From a virus, in the IMG/VR virus record IMGVR_UViG_3300042895_003305, positions 1 to 35,298 of that record: a stretch of 35,298 nt of DNA, one strand, 5' to 3'. The notes beneath the pieces were generated by a model. That model was given only the letters and a program-made list of their open reading frames with translations. It was not told where the DNA came from and did not search any database. The position numbers and the translations under genes were made by a program. Positions 15,420-27,425 of this stretch are shown here, in pieces. Position 1 is the first letter of the stretch. The number at the start of each line of letters is the position of its first letter.

Positions 15420-15515
15420 TGCGGTGATTTGGGCGCCCAATCACCGCATAGTTTGCGGTGATTGTTGCATTTGCGGTGATTAGGGGTCATAAACGCCGCA
15501 AGAGGTGCGGTGATT
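15420..15515. promoter_or_regulatory. Duplicated operator array at the fic start
   Basis: TGCGGTGATT occurs in direct orientation at 15420, 15454, 15472 and 15506, and inverted (AATCACCGCA) at 15439-15448. A degenerate inverted copy (AAACGCCGCA, 8 of 10) lies at 15491-15500. The layout is two 44-bp units with a 52-bp period, each site-N9-inverted site-N5-site. The last copy overlaps the GTG start codon of fic. This suggests repeated binding of a regulator, perhaps Fic's own C-terminal winged helix, that shuts down fic and possibly affects the leftward G gene. Confidence 0.75.
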
Positions 15516-16625
15516 ATTGTGCGATACATTCATCAAAGAGACGACTGGCCCCGATTTCGTTGGGACGAACTGCAAATCGGCTCCAAGCTTACCGAGGTCC
15601 GCCATCGTCAAGGGCGGCTCACAGGCCGCATGGAAGCGCTTGGTTTTGGACTGCGCGATGAGGCCATTCTGCGCACGCTCACCCAGGACGTGCTCAAATC
15701 CAGCGAAATCGAGGGGGAAATCCTCGATGCTGAGCAGGTCAGGTCTTCCATTGCGCGGCGCATGGGCCTTGATGTTGCGGGACTGGTTCCCTCCGATCGT
15801 AACGTCGAAGGTGTGGTCGAGATGATGCTCGATGCCACGCAGAATTTTGATCAACCTCTAACCGCTGCCCGACTTTTCGACTGGCACGCCGCCCTGTTTC
15901 CGACAGGCAGAAGCGGCATGACCAAAATTACGGTTGGCGGTTGGCGAAACGACGAAACTGGCCCCATGCAGGTCGTGTCAGGTCCGATAGGGCGCGAGCG
16001 GGTCCATTATGAAGCGCCTGTTGCCGCGCAGCTTGATACTGAAATGCAGGCATTTCTGGCATGGTTCGACGATGCATCATCGCTAGACCCCGTCATCAAG
16101 GCGGCAATTGCCCATATCTGGTTTGTGACCATCCACCCGTTTGATGATGGGAATGGGCGTATCGGCAGGGCGATTTCAGACATGGCCATGGCGCGCTCTG
16201 ATCGCAGTGCACAGCGGTTTTACAGCATGTCTGCGCAAATCCGGACTGAGCGTAAGGCATATTACGATCAGCTCGAAGCAAACCAGAAGGGCGATCTGGA
16301 TATTACAGGCTGGCTGACCTGGTTCCTGGATTGTCTAGACCGCGCCTTTGATGGGGCGGAAGAAACGCTGGCTGCCGTTCTGAGCAAGGCAAAGTTTTGG
16401 GAGAAGTACAGCCCTGCAGGCCTCAATGCCCGCCAGACCCAGATCCTCAATCGGCTGCTTGATGGGTTTGAAGGTAAGCTGACCAACGCCAAATACGCCA
16501 AGCTTGCCAAGACATCGAGCGATACATCGCTGCGTGACCTCAATGACCTGGTTGCCAGAGGTATCCTGCACAAGGCCCCGGCGGGAGGGCGCGGGACCAG
16601 CTATCACCTGCCAGAAGATGATTGA
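15510..16625 (+). CDS. fic: Fic family AMP-transferase with autoinhibitory helix
   Basis: The 371-residue product is a class II Fic protein. The N-terminal part (YIHQRDDWPRFRW, then LTEVRHRQGRLTGRM) is the DUF4172-type domain. The inhibitory motif (S/T)xxxE(G/N) is S64-x3-E68-G69 in KSSEIEGE. The catalytic loop HPFDDGNGRIGR is complete at residues 209-220, with His209. The C-terminal 70 residues (LNARQTQILNRLL, then YAKLAKTSSDTSLRDLNDLV) form a winged-helix DNA-binding domain. Such enzymes transfer AMP to target proteins. The start is GTG at 15510; GTG at 15519 is possible. It is on the opposite strand to the tail genes that flank it, so it is an inserted accessory gene. Confidence 0.9.
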   Translation: MIIVRYIHQRDDWPRFRWDELQIGSKLTEVRHRQGRLTGRMEALGFGLRDEAILRTLTQDVLKSSEIEGEILDAEQVRSSIARRMGLDVAGLVPSDRNVEGVVEMMLDATQNFDQPLTAARLFDWHAALFPTGRSGMTKITVGGWRNDETGPMQVVSGPIGRERVHYEAPVAAQLDTEMQAFLAWFDDASSLDPVIKAAIAHIWFVTIHPFDDGNGRIGRAISDMAMARSDRSAQRFYSMSAQIRTERKAYYDQLEANQKGDLDITGWLTWFLDCLDRAFDGAEETLAAVLSKAKFWEKYSPAGLNARQTQILNRLLDGFEGKLTNAKYAKLAKTSSDTSLRDLNDLVARGILHKAPAGGRGTSYHLPEDD

Positions 16626-22540: not shown

Positions 22541-24360
22541 GCGTGCAGGCTCTTTAGCCAGTCATCGATCGAGCCGGAGGTGTCGCCTGCCATCGCTGCC
22601 CCCACTGCCATACACAGCGCTACAGCTGCGTCGATCTTGTTGATGGCCCGCTGCTTGGAAAGCCACTTATTGTCCCAGCGGTCGGTCTCTGTGACCGCTG
22701 ACATCATCGCTGAAATCAGCACCGGATTTCGCTTAAGGCGGATCCGGCCTTCAAGGATCAGTTCTTCGAGATGCCGCAGTGAGCCTGGCATCCATAGACC
22801 TTCGCTCATCCCATCCTGTGGTTTGCCGCGTTTGGTGCCGCCTTGTGGGTGTTCGACAAAATTGACCGATAGTCCAAGGTCACAGACTTCCTCTTCAAAT
22901 CGGCGAAACGCATAACGGTCGTAGGCCACGGTCTCGACGCGGTAATCACTGTCCAGTTCAGCGAGCGCCTGCGCCACTTGCCGCAAGCTGATGTTCTCGC
23001 CTTGGGGCGCATTCAGAAATCCGCCAGCAACCCATAAGTCATAGGGCTGCTTGTCGCGCAGCACCCGCGCCGACAGCGTATCGCCCGGCGTCCAGACCTC
23101 GACCCAAGCATCAAAACACGGCTTGCCATCCTTTTCGCCATTGCGCTGGACGCCGGCCAGTGCAGTCAAATCCCGGTTCTGGCTGAGGTCCAATCCAAGC
23201 CAGACTGGTTGTCCCCCTTTAGGATCGAACTCGGCCAGCAATGGTTCCAGCGTCGAACGCGCCATCCAGGCTGTTTCGGCATCGGTCCAGATGCAGAAGT
23301 GCAGCCGAAGTATGCCGTTTAACTGACCCGGAATAGCTTTTGCCTGGGCCACAACTTCGGAGAGATACTGCTCGGTGATCGTAACGCCCAAGAGCGGATT
23401 AGCCTTGATCCAGCAACTGGGATCAGTCAGCGGATCGTCGTCCTCATCGAGCGCGCAGACATAGCTGAACGTCGTGTCGTCGATGACTTGGCCGAGGTAA
23501 GTCGGGTCCAGCACCGCATCGGGATTGCCCGCAGCCACACGGACCCCGTGTTCGTGTTCTTCCCAGGCAACTGAATTTCGGTTTGCCCCCGAATTGGTAA
23601 TCATGAACAGCAGCGGATCGCGGCGGAACTTGAAACCGCGCTCCAGCATTTCGATAATCGAGCGGTCCGGTAGCTCGTGGACCTCGTCCGCTAACACAAA
23701 ATAAGGTCGAGGGCCTGACCCTGTCTTGCCCGTATCGCGCGACACCGGGCGAAAGAAACTGCCCGACGGCAAATGCGCGATGTTGAACTCGCGGCCCGGA
23801 CCGCCGGAGAACTCCAACCGACGGGCAAGCGCTGGGGATTGCCGCACCATCTTTACCGCGTCACGGAACAGGATGTTGGCCTGCTCCTTTTTGGCGGCCG
23901 CCGCATAGATCTGAGCACCCGCTTCCTTGCAGGCTGTCATCCCATAAACGCCAATGCCACCGGCAATCGGCGACTTGCCGTTGCCTTTGCCTTGTTCGAT
24001 GTAGGCCCGGCGAAACCGGCGCCTGCCATCCTTGCGCTTCCAGCCAAATAGCGAACCGATAATAAAGGCCTGGCTTGGTTCCAGCTGGAAAGGCTGGCCC
24101 TCGAACTGGCCTTCGGAAAGCTTCAGTACCTCCTCGAAAAAGGCAAAGGCATGATTGGCGGCCGTCTGGTCGAACCAGACGCCATCCCTGCGCTTCAGGT
24201 CCGCGATGTGTCGTCGGCAAGAGTTGCGAACATGCGGCCCGGCTATAGTCTCGCCTGACACGACAGCATTGGCATAAGCCAGCGTGCGATCAGGCGAAGA
24301 AGCGGTCGGCGGGGTCTCCCCCATCTTCTGGCGGCGCGGCCGCGATCCTGCTCCTGGCAC
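22537..24360 (-). CDS. terL: Terminase large subunit
   Basis: The 607-residue motor-nuclease packages DNA into the prohead. The ATPase carries a Walker A variant EQGKGNGKS at residues 122-130 and Walker B with D225-E226 in VLADEVHEL. The nuclease begins with WLGLDLSQNRDLTAL and continues with VAYDRYAF and a final NKIDAAVALCMAVG. These are hallmarks of the HK97-like large subunits. The listed start is GTG at 24360, which overlaps terS by 71 bases; ATG at 24324 (MGETPPT) is an equally good choice, and neither has a strong ribosome-binding site. It couples to the portal by ATGA. Confidence 0.95.
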   Translation of the reverse strand: MPGAGSRPRRQKMGETPPTASSPDRTLAYANAVVSGETIAGPHVRNSCRRHIADLKRRDGVWFDQTAANHAFAFFEEVLKLSEGQFEGQPFQLEPSQAFIIGSLFGWKRKDGRRRFRRAYIEQGKGNGKSPIAGGIGVYGMTACKEAGAQIYAAAAKKEQANILFRDAVKMVRQSPALARRLEFSGGPGREFNIAHLPSGSFFRPVSRDTGKTGSGPRPYFVLADEVHELPDRSIIEMLERGFKFRRDPLLFMITNSGANRNSVAWEEHEHGVRVAAGNPDAVLDPTYLGQVIDDTTFSYVCALDEDDDPLTDPSCWIKANPLLGVTITEQYLSEVVAQAKAIPGQLNGILRLHFCIWTDAETAWMARSTLEPLLAEFDPKGGQPVWLGLDLSQNRDLTALAGVQRNGEKDGKPCFDAWVEVWTPGDTLSARVLRDKQPYDLWVAGGFLNAPQGENISLRQVAQALAELDSDYRVETVAYDRYAFRRFEEEVCDLGLSVNFVEHPQGGTKRGKPQDGMSEGLWMPGSLRHLEELILEGRIRLKRNPVLISAMMSAVTETDRWDNKWLSKQRAINKIDAAVALCMAVGAAMAGDTSGSIDDWLKSLHA

Positions 24361-24772
24361 TGGGCGTCATCCCGAATTCTGCAGCGTAGCGCATCATGTC
24401 CGCGGCTGCCTTGTTGGCGGTGCCAACCAGAGGGTTCTGGATCGCGTTGCCGTTGGTAGTCTTGATCATCAGGCCGCCTGTTAATTGGTCCTTCTGCGCC
24501 ATCTTAGCGATTGCCCGTTCCGCCTGGACCCAGCGGCCATAGGCCTGCGCATAGGCAGCTAGGGCCGACCGGTCGATCTCGGAAAGAACTCCCAGATTAT
24601 AGAGATCCGTTGCAACCCGGTTCCATTCCTCTACCGCATCTGCAGTGAGGTGGGCCGGCGGCGCTGGAAGGGCCGCTTTGGTTCTGGCTTCCTTGCGGTT
24701 CAGTGAACGCTTTCCAGGATTGCCGGTGACCAGCTTGAGATGGGTTGGCTTTGGTTTTGTTCCAGGCTTCAT
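24290..24772 (-). CDS. terS: Terminase small subunit (P27 family)
   Basis: The 160-residue product starts MKPGTKPKPTHLKLVTGNPG, the diagnostic P27-type beginning. The ATG at 24772 has AGGAG seven bases upstream and is preferred over one at 24793. The middle is helical (ADAVEEWNRVATDLYNLGVL followed by DRSALAAYAQAYGRWVQAE) and the C-terminus reads NPLVGTANKAAADMMRYAAE with EFGMTPSARSRI. It recognises the packaging start and delivers DNA to TerL. Its upstream region carries the double operator of the divergent higBA pair, so the toxin-antitoxin operator could also touch late-gene transcription. Confidence 0.93.
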   Translation of the reverse strand: MKPGTKPKPTHLKLVTGNPGKRSLNRKEARTKAALPAPPAHLTADAVEEWNRVATDLYNLGVLSEIDRSALAAYAQAYGRWVQAERAIAKMAQKDQLTGGLMIKTTNGNAIQNPLVGTANKAAADMMRYAAEFGMTPSARSRIAAAPPEDGGDPADRFFA

Positions 24773-24807
24773 AGGAAGGCTCCTGTGCCGCATCGCGCTT
24801 CCTATTC

Positions 24808-24843
24808 GTCAAATACCCTTTGACATGTCAAATGATGTTTGAC
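24808..24843. promoter_or_regulatory. Double operator upstream of second higBA pair
   Basis: Two inverted repeats of the form GTCAAA-N5-TTTGAC lie side by side: 24808-24824 (spacer TACCC) and 24827-24843 (spacer TGATG), separated by AT. The inner halves form the 14-bp palindrome TTTGACATGTCAAA. TTGACA at 24820 also resembles a -35 box with CATATG 17 bases on, so bound HigA would block RNA polymerase. The region lies between divergent terS and higB. Confidence 0.8.
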
Positions 24844-24853
24844 ATATGGCTCT

Positions 24854-25138
24854 ATGGATATCGAAAGCATAACCCACAAAGGGCTGCGAAGGTTTTTCGA
24901 AACCGGCAACGCAAAAGGCTTGGTGGGTGACACAGCACGGATCCGCAAGATGCTGGCATTTATTGATGCAGCAGCGAGTTTTAACGAACTGGCCGTGCCT
25001 CCGAATTATGGGTTGCACGAACTGGTTGGCGACAAGGCCGGGCACTGGGCAATGACCGTGACAAAAAACTGGCGTCTGACCTTCATCAAGATTGATGAAG
25101 CGACAATCGCTGAACTTGATATGGAGGATTACCACTGA
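24854..25138 (+). CDS. higB: HigB-type toxin (RelE superfamily)
   Basis: A 94-residue protein starting MDIESITHKGLRRFFETGNA. The pattern GLRRFF, RIRKMLAFIDAA, LHELVGDKAGHWAMTVTKNW and RLTFIKIDEATIAELDMEDY is that of HigB/RelE-family mRNA interferases that cut messages on the ribosome. The ATG at 24854 is preferred; an upstream TTG at 24839 lies inside the operator. It overlaps the antitoxin by one base (TGATG). The toxin-first order is typical of HigBA. It is on the plus strand, opposite to the phage late genes. Confidence 0.88.
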   Translation: MDIESITHKGLRRFFETGNAKGLVGDTARIRKMLAFIDAAASFNELAVPPNYGLHELVGDKAGHWAMTVTKNWRLTFIKIDEATIAELDMEDYH

Positions 25139-25440
25139 TGGCTATAATCATGCACCCCTCGCTAGCTGTTCACCCCGGTGATTGGCTGAAAACCGAAGTA
25201 GTCGTTCCGCACGGCGTTAGCATCAATCACCTCGCAACCTGCTTTCACGTAACGCGCCAGACACTCAGCAATCTTTTCAACGGCCACACGGCCCTTTCCG
25301 CTGAAATGGCGATCAGGTTCGAGAAGGCTTTTGGTATAAAAGCTGATACGCTGATGCGCATGCAGACATCGTATGACTTGGCTCAAGCCCGCGCCCATGC
25401 CGATGACATTATTGTTGATAGGGTTCTGGCTGCTGCCTAA
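25138..25440 (+). CDS. higA: HigA-type antitoxin
   Basis: The 100-residue product contains the HigA/VapI beginning HPGDWLKTEVVVPHGVSINH and the XRE-type helix-turn-helix INHLATCFHVTRQTLSNLFN (about residues 28-48), followed by HTALSAEMAIRFEKAFGI. It binds its toxin and represses the operon, most likely at the double GTCAAA operator upstream. GGAGG lies about ten bases before the ATG. It ends five bases before the end of the convergent methyltransferase gene. Confidence 0.92.
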   Translation: MAIIMHPSLAVHPGDWLKTEVVVPHGVSINHLATCFHVTRQTLSNLFNGHTALSAEMAIRFEKAFGIKADTLMRMQTSYDLAQARAHADDIIVDRVLAAA

Positions 25441-25445
25441 GCATC

Positions 25446-26735
25446 TTAGGCCGTTGCGCAATCACTGGAAACGGGCGCGGGTTCTTTTCCGGCGATTTCG
25501 TTAAACGTTCGGCCATCAGCTTCATGGACCGCGTCCTTTCCCGTAAAATCCTGCCAGCGTTGAACAATGACGTCGGCATATTTGGGGTCAAGTTCCATCA
25601 ACCGGCATCGTCTGCCCTGCTGTTCACAAGCGATCAACGTCGAGCCCGAACCTCCAAAAAGGTCAACCACTAAAGCGCCGCGGGCCGAGGAATTCAGTAG
25701 CGCACGTTCAATCAATTGCGTCGGTTTCGTGGTCGGATGCAGATCAGAGACCCTCGGCCTAGGAATGTTCCAGATGTCGGACTGCTTGCGGTCCGGCACA
25801 TGCATGATCCGTGGTCCGTCTTCGTTCCATCCATACCATAAGGGCTCGTACTGGGTGTGATAGTCCTTGCGCGAGAGGACGAGCGCATCCTTCACCCAGA
25901 TGATCGTCGACGACCAATGAAATTTAGCTTCGCGCAACCCCTTGTCGATCGCAGGCCATTCCTGAGCGCTCATGACAACGTAAGCAAGCGCACCAGGCTT
26001 GGTGACGACATAGAATGAGGCACAAAACCCACTTACAAATTCGCACCACTTGGCTTCGTCCATATGATCGTTCAGGATTTTACGGGGCTTATATCCTTGC
26101 GCATTGCCTGCTTTGACCGCGCCATAATTTACATTCCAAGGTGGATCGGTGAACAACATATCACCAAGCTCACCCTGCATCAGTTTGTCGACATCAGTCT
26201 GGACAGTGCTATCGCCGCACACAAGCCGATGATCGCCCATGATCCAAACATCACCCGGCACTGAAACAGGCGTCTGCGGCAAATCTGGGACGGTGTCAGG
26301 ATCCGTCAACCCTTCACTGCTTTGCGCCAGCAGACCTCCAAGTTCGTTGTCGGAAAATCCCGTGAGCATTAGGCCAAAGTCGAGGCTCTGCAGATCCTCC
26401 AATTCAACTGCCAAGAGTTCAAGATCCCAACCAGCGTTCAGTGCCAACTTATTGTCGGCTATCACATAGGCCTTCTTCTGGGCCTCGCTCCAGCCTTTGG
26501 CTACCATCACCGGAATCTCGGCAAGGCCAAGTTTACGCGCCGCGAGCACCCTGCCATGGCCTGCGATCAGGCCGCCGTCCTCGTCCATTAGAACCGGGAC
26601 CGTCCAGCCCCATTCACGGATCGAGGCGGCAATCTGTGCCACCTGCTCGTCGCTGTGAGTGCGGGCGTTGCGGGCATAGGGCACGAGTGCCGATACGCTT
26701 CTGCGCTCGACCTGATCAGCTGGCCATTGTGTCAT
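25446..26735 (-). CDS. DNA methyltransferase with N-terminal ParB domain
   Basis: A 429-residue fusion. Residues about 10-90 are a ParB/sulfiredoxin-like domain with GGLIAGHGRVLAARKLG. The rest is an amino-methyltransferase of beta type: motif IV DPPW at residues 197-200 comes before motif I DLFGGSGST at residues 358-366, and HPTTKPTQLIERAL lies between. It should methylate adenine N6 or cytosine N4 in a specific sequence using SAM. No partner restriction enzyme lies beside it, so it is an orphan, probably protecting phage DNA or regulating it. GGAG lies five bases before the ATG. It is flanked by two plus-strand toxin-antitoxin pairs. Confidence 0.93.
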   Translation of the reverse strand: MTQWPADQVERRSVSALVPYARNARTHSDEQVAQIAASIREWGWTVPVLMDEDGGLIAGHGRVLAARKLGLAEIPVMVAKGWSEAQKKAYVIADNKLALNAGWDLELLAVELEDLQSLDFGLMLTGFSDNELGGLLAQSSEGLTDPDTVPDLPQTPVSVPGDVWIMGDHRLVCGDSTVQTDVDKLMQGELGDMLFTDPPWNVNYGAVKAGNAQGYKPRKILNDHMDEAKWCEFVSGFCASFYVVTKPGALAYVVMSAQEWPAIDKGLREAKFHWSSTIIWVKDALVLSRKDYHTQYEPLWYGWNEDGPRIMHVPDRKQSDIWNIPRPRVSDLHPTTKPTQLIERALLNSSARGALVVDLFGGSGSTLIACEQQGRRCRLMELDPKYADVIVQRWQDFTGKDAVHEADGRTFNEIAGKEPAPVSSDCATA

Positions 26736-26796: not shown

Positions 26797-27117
26797 ATGT
26801 GGACGATCCTCTACTACAACGATCGCGTGAGGCGGGAGATCGAGGAGTGGCCTGTCGGCATCTTTGCCGACTACCTCCGCCTCGTTGAATGGCTGGAGGA
26901 AGATGGCCTCGATCTTCGAATGCCACATTCACGGGCCATGAGCGGAGGATTGTTCGAATTACGGTGCAAGGGTGCCGAGGGGATCGGCCGCGCGTTCTAC
27001 TGTACGCAGGTCGGTCGTGAGTTGGTGATCTTGCATAGCATACTGAAAAAGAGCCAGGCGACGCCCGATAAGGACCTCAAGCTGGCTCGCAAGCGGTTGA
27101 AGGAGGTGCAGTCATGA
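26797..27117 (+). CDS. Toxin of Gp49-like (DUF891) HigB type
   Basis: The 106-residue product starts MWTILYYNDRVRREIEEWP and contains LVEWLEEDGLDLRMPHSRAM, GGLFELRCKGAEGIGRAFYC and LVILHSILKKSQATP, the sequence style of phage-derived Gp49-like (DUF891) toxins of the RelE superfamily. The L-(F/W)-ELR motif and the C-terminal Lys/Arg-rich helix (DKDLKLARKRLKEV) are the usual active region. It overlaps its antitoxin by ATGA. It is a separate lineage from the HigB at 24854, so the two systems are not recent duplicates. Confidence 0.88.
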   Translation: MWTILYYNDRVRREIEEWPVGIFADYLRLVEWLEEDGLDLRMPHSRAMSGGLFELRCKGAEGIGRAFYCTQVGRELVILHSILKKSQATPDKDLKLARKRLKEVQS

Positions 27118-27425
27118 GTGATCAAGGTTTTAAGCCTGTCCGTCACGACGGGAAAAAGGCTCTGGAAAAGGCGATGCAACGTCCTGGCTTCAAAGAGGCC
27201 TGGGAAGCGGGCGCCGATGAATATGCCGCGCTGCGGTCTTTACTTGAGGCGCGCAAACAATCGGGCCTGACCCAGGACGAAATTGCGGTCCGGATGGGGA
27301 CCTCCAAGAGTGCTGTCTCGCGCCTGGAAAGCTCGATGCGCGATCCTAAACACTCGCCAACATTCGAGACGATCCGCCGCTATGCTAAAGCCTGCGGCAA
27401 GCGCGTCGAACTCCAGCTGGTTTAG
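27114..27425 (+). CDS. HTH antitoxin (HigA-like, XRE family)
   Basis: A 103-residue protein whose N-terminal half (VRHDGKKALEKAMQRPGFKE) is likely to bind toxin. The C-terminal half has a clear XRE helix-turn-helix, LTQDEIAVRMGTSKSAVSRL at residues 52-71, followed by FETIRRYAKACGKRVELQL. It neutralises the DUF891-type toxin and should repress the pair. It converges on the HNH endonuclease gene, 98 bases away. Confidence 0.92.
   Translation: MSDQGFKPVRHDGKKALEKAMQRPGFKEAWEAGADEYAALRSLLEARKQSGLTQDEIAVRMGTSKSAVSRLESSMRDPKHSPTFETIRRYAKACGKRVELQLV

Follow-up and report, generated by a model that had tools for sequence, protein, structure and literature searches.

The two inverted repeats at positions 24808-24843 of the window (the whole stretch of 35,298 bases analysed here, a single virus record) are most probably the autorepression operator of the rightward gene pair higBA, a self-contained antisense cassette, and they do not appear to set a promoter for the terminase gene terS. 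We put the probability of this reading at roughly 0.88. The comparison with other modules gives good support to the view that the site is an ordinary operator of a known autoregulatory kind in a phage-borne higBA; the virus is a phage of sphingomonad-type bacteria. In the mechanism that we propose, a HigA dimer would read GTCAAA-N5-TTTGAC, whose half-sites lie 11 bp, or one helical turn, apart. Two such dimers, 19 bp apart, would occupy the -35 box and the spacer that leads to the -10 box, and HigA, alone or with HigB, would block RNA polymerase at the rightward higBA promoter. A fall in HigA would open this promoter, and the mRNA would begin at the higB start codon or no more than a few bases away. 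The cassette as a whole has been inserted between the methylase and terS genes. The suggestion in the preliminary description that HigA represses its own pair is strongly supported by sequence comparison, namely by conservation of the site, a fixed promoter geometry, covariation with the recognition helix and homology to solved HigA-operator complexes. By comparison of many alphaproteobacterial and phage modules, the analysis defines the operator of HigA together with a higBA promoter that is probably leaderless.

The segment 24808-24843, GTCAAATACCCTTTGACATGTCAAATGATGTTTGAC, contains two exact copies of GTCAAA-N5-TTTGAC, which lie precisely where they had been described and start 19 nt apart. 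Copy 1 (24808-24824, GTCAAA-TACCC-TTTGAC) is a predicted HigA dimer site over the -35 box, and copy 2 (24827-24843, GTCAAA-TGATG-TTTGAC) is a predicted dimer site that fills the spacer up to the -10 box; the two are joined by an inner perfect palindrome of 14 bp, TTTGACATGTCAAA, at 24819-24832. The described overlap with a TTGACA box was likewise observed, since this hexamer occurs on the plus strand at 24820-24825 and 24839-24844; it is also found on the minus strand at 24832-24827. The two copies are the only exact matches to GTCAAA-N5-TTTGAC in the entire 35,298-base record, and when two mismatches were allowed, none of 100 shuffles contained as many operator matches. Perfect 6-N5-6 palindromes are not in themselves rare in the record (20 seen versus about 11 expected), but two copies with identical arms 19 nt apart would be expected from base composition only about 1e-11 times. 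The pair of same-arm repeats is not a product of chance.

The setting is divergent, as had been reported, with terS of the P27 family running leftward and higB and higA running rightward. The gene higB (24854-25138, plus strand) encodes a RelE-like toxin of 94 aa (PF05015, 47.9 bits against a cut-off of 27), and higA (25138-25440, plus strand), whose start shares one base with the higB stop, encodes an antitoxin (TIGR02607, HTH_3; 81.5 bits for TIGR02607 against a cut-off of 47.7). The pair has the features of a type II toxin-antitoxin module of the HigBA kind: a RelE-like toxin gene placed first, an HTH antitoxin gene downstream and an inverted-repeat operator overlapping the promoter. The best sequence match of HigB in the PDB is the HigB of Proteus vulgaris (E 4.8e-15), and the PDB sequence matches of HigA are Escherichia coli YbaQ, Pseudomonas aeruginosa HigA, GraA and P. 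vulgaris HigA. The predicted structure of HigA (mean pLDDT 85) resembles GraA and the HigA proteins of P. aeruginosa and P. vulgaris, DNA complexes included, with Z scores of 12-13 over about 90 residues; the first structure outside the HigA family in this comparison has a Z of 9.1. On the left of the operator lies terS (24290-24772, minus strand), the terminase small subunit gene, whose start was placed at 24772 with AGGAG at a suitable distance; terL lies on this side too, also on the minus strand. On the other side of higBA is a gene for a ParB-like N6/N4 DNA methylase (25446-26735, minus strand). Beyond the methylase gene there is a second toxin-antitoxin-like pair (26797-27425, plus strand), consisting of a Gp49/DUF891 protein and an HTH_3 protein, whose presence or absence in relatives is independent of higBA. 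A gene for a Fic/DUF4172 protein (15510-16625, plus strand), apparently a cargo gene, lies antisense within the late gene cluster.

Relatives of HigA were sampled from 31 loci on viral contigs and 80 in bacterial genomes, and the 81 distinct 80-nt sequences upstream of higB were scored for GTCAA-N7-TTGAC with a threshold of 8 out of 10. The motif was found at or above this threshold in 78 of the 81 upstreams; among shuffled upstreams the mean was 2.7 and the maximum 7, and the two control regions gave 0 of 81 and 0 of 79. The DNA beyond the far side of higB varies widely among these relatives, and most of those in bacterial genomes carry the site ahead of higB next to other neighbours. When 2.9 million viral contigs were scanned with the extended operator, 25 loci were returned, comprising 18 with higBA, 2 with higBA deletion scars and 5 unrelated. 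Several close relatives have a degenerate left arm in copy 2 (GTAAAA, GTAAGG); copy 2 may therefore be a weaker site.

To follow the operator at terS, 77 scorable terS relatives were classed by the content of the methylase-terS junction. This junction (24773-25445 in the window; terS relatives L114-L193) is a hot-spot for cassettes, whose inserts are always antisense to the late genes. It held higBA in 12 of the 77 relatives, another antisense cassette in 21, both in 5 and neither in 39. The other cassette is an antisense ORF of 138 aa that looks nuclease-like by eye and has no match in Pfam. In 24 of the 39 relatives without a cassette the end of the methylase gene runs 4 or 53 nt into the start of terS, and terS is therefore probably cotranscribed, being read from upstream. 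Nine other cassette-free relatives (L115-L120, L130, L133 and L154) carry a scar of about 140 nt, which aligns in register with the window through the terS leader, copy 1, a decayed copy 2 and a decayed higB start, indicating that higBA was lost there. When the scar was aligned locally to higBA, the scores were close to those of shuffled sequences, and the in-register alignment is the better evidence. Deletion scars of higBA of about 140 nt were also seen in L215-L222. Copy 1 is perfect in the scars of L120 and L154. Among the 60 scorable terS relatives without higBA, a perfect operator was present in 2 and one with a single mismatch in 7, and all nine share one deletion scar. Within the scars, 1 of 19 positions varies in copy 1, compared with 5 of 38 towards terS and 40 of 107 farther on; since these counts come from only five distinct sequences, one of them an apparent recombinant, we do not interpret the stronger conservation of copy 1 as a sign of function.

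These data bear on two ways in which the operator might reach the late genes. One is that HigA at the double operator would form a roadblock to leftward transcription of the late genes just before terS, and that this transcription could conversely silence or strip the promoter of higBA. Such a roadblock is conceivable because higBA is embedded, in antisense orientation, in the methylase-terS transcription unit, and if true it would couple the addiction module physically to the packaging genes without any terS promoter; the single operator kept in the scars lacking higBA fits with it and is explained equally well by recent loss. We regard this as improbable. The other, proposed in the preliminary description, is that HigA on the operator also controls a leftward terS promoter and so links the addiction module to late gene control, which we consider very unlikely. 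In its favour, the terS start is 36 nt from copy 1, a minus-strand TTGACA is present at 24832-24827, and the highest-scoring leftward promoter of the window reaches 9 of 12. However, eight operator-bearing relatives, some with an identical HigA, do not retain this match, and no conserved leftward promoter was detected in the operator region of the nine loci tested. The operator follows higBA and not terS, and accompanies higBA also at loci that lack terS. Where higBA is the direct neighbour of terS, the operators are 36 and 55 nt from that gene, and where the other cassette intervenes the distance is about 520 bp (L126, L143, L165, L169 and L183). Within the set of 77, phages with neither higBA nor its scar, including the 21 relatives with the other cassette only, have no operator at terS. 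What was found is not a divergent operator shared with a terS promoter, and as far as shown terS is outside the regulon of the operator. This takes away a tempting but unsupported link between a toxin-antitoxin module and phage late gene control.

Returning to autorepression by HigA, the letters of the operator arms track the recognition helix of the protein, as judged from sequence comparison. The closest relatives have GTCAAA arms, and a sister clade, whose HigA is 81-86% identical to that of the window, carries a G as the sixth arm letter (GACAAG or GTCAAG, with CTTGAC). Between the two clades HigA has fixed differences at six positions only (23, 39, 42, 50, 51 and 95), four of which fall within residues 39-51 (P 0.002). 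T42 pairs with GTCAAA arms, and A42 with GTCAAG arms in the sister phages. Residue 42 is inside the predicted recognition helix (40-47) and residue 39 is just before it. Residue 42 is aligned to T40 of P. aeruginosa HigA (PaHigA), the counterpart of T37 in P. vulgaris HigA; T40 is among the DNA-contacting residues of PaHigA, and both T40 and T37 are important for DNA binding (PMC6987408). As the covariation arose once on the tree, within a group of close relatives, it supports a DNA contact but does not prove it; this residue-to-base correspondence is directly testable. In six further relatives (L070, L079, L094, L107, L109 and L110) HigA has P41 rather than Q and the left arms are GTAAC or GTTAC, a possible second change of specificity.

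The covariation also bears on whether another regulator, such as the host LexA, the repressor of the phage or the antitoxin from the second toxin-antitoxin-like pair (27114-27425), binds the operator in place of HigA. Some higBA operons respond to DNA damage, as in Caulobacter crescentus according to a citation in PMC8265657, and this speaks for another regulator. But a pattern check revealed no alphaproteobacterial LexA-type GTTC-N7-GTTC box nearby, the second toxin-antitoxin-like pair has no exact copy of the operator, and the site follows higA across unrelated genomes with arm letters that track HigA residue 42, so that we give very little credence to a different regulator.

The geometry of the higBA promoter is consistent with repression by HigA. 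The predicted -35 box, TTGACA (24820-24825, plus strand), is formed by the right arm of copy 1, and the predicted -10 box, CATATG (24843-24848, plus strand), follows after a spacer of 17, ends 5 nt before the higB start codon and is reached at its first base by copy 2. With copy 1 over the -35 box and copy 2 over the spacer, occupancy by HigA would block the promoter. Among 60 non-redundant upstreams, a TTGAC-type -35 box was found 34-37 nt from the higB start in 59, and in most of them this box is supplied by the operator's right arm. A -10-like hexamer follows, most commonly after a spacer of 17 bp, and in 54 of the 59 upstreams its end is 5-7 nt from the start codon; the mean match of the hexamer is 3.39 of 6 versus 2.59 for shuffles (maximum 2.93). 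The CATATG of the window is weak (3 of 6), and a sigma-70 scan, which demands T at the last position of the -10 box, reported no promoter at the operator. As the -10 box is close to the higB start and Shine-Dalgarno-like motifs are present in only 5 of the 60 upstreams, we infer that the higBA mRNA is probably leaderless. A search of the open-access literature returned nothing on point about leaderless HigB messages or sphingomonad HigA operators. In five relatives (L029, L044, L061, L073 and L104) the operator has a second copy, offset by +28 to +30 bp, that overlaps the -10 box and reaches the start codon, and in L061 (GTCAAG-TATAA-CTTGAC) the spacer letters TATAA and the next C make up the -10 box. 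That the repeats are promoter parts only, two tandem TTGACA -35 boxes that are palindromic by chance, is extremely improbable: conservation is indeed highest in the TTGAC arm, which also serves as the -35 box, but the left arms are conserved too, arm letter 6 changes in both halves at once from one clade to the other (A/T to G/C), and the second TTGACA (24839-24844) has no -10 box at 17 bp, where it would fall inside higB.

The two predicted dimer sites were compared with known systems. GraA and PaHigA bind as two cooperating dimers on opposite DNA faces (PMC6393540, PMC6987408), and we infer that two HigA dimers would likewise cooperate here, in a different register. In the graTA operator, read from its printed sequence, the half-sites are 11 bp apart and the dimers 7 bp apart. 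The autocorrelation of operator scores in the alphaproteobacterial set peaks at +7 and -7 bp, with 24 scores of 7 or more at these offsets versus about 0.55 per offset on average, a signal due in part to the inner letters of the main site itself. The 7-bp register, as in GraA and PaHigA operators, is present in other alphaproteobacterial relatives, whereas in the clade of the window the second site is found at +19 bp, and in a few others at +28 to +30 bp. The tandem sites 19 bp apart are a feature of the clade and a somewhat unusual register.

GraTA of Pseudomonas putida (PMC6393540; 6fix) is, like the present module, of the HigBA type with inverted half-sites about 11 bp apart, and two GraA dimers per operator correspond to the two predicted dimer sites; it differs in that the GraA dimers interleave 7 bp apart on opposite faces and the half-site is TAAC, instead of tandem GTCAAA sites at 19 bp. 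HigBA of P. aeruginosa (PA4674; PMC6987408; 6jpi, 6lb3) shares the toxin-first operon, two promoter palindromes, the HigA fold (Z about 12.7) and autorepression as proposed here, but its arms are TTAAC/GTTAA, two dimers bind around one central palindrome, and D43 and R49 of PaHigA are N45 and T51 in the HigA of the window. HigBA of P. vulgaris Rts1 (6chv, 9chl, 9chn) is again a toxin-first operon with one HigA dimer per inverted repeat, as predicted here; its operator sequence is different, and the base-reading R40 of its HigA corresponds to D43 of PaHigA and so to N45 in the window.
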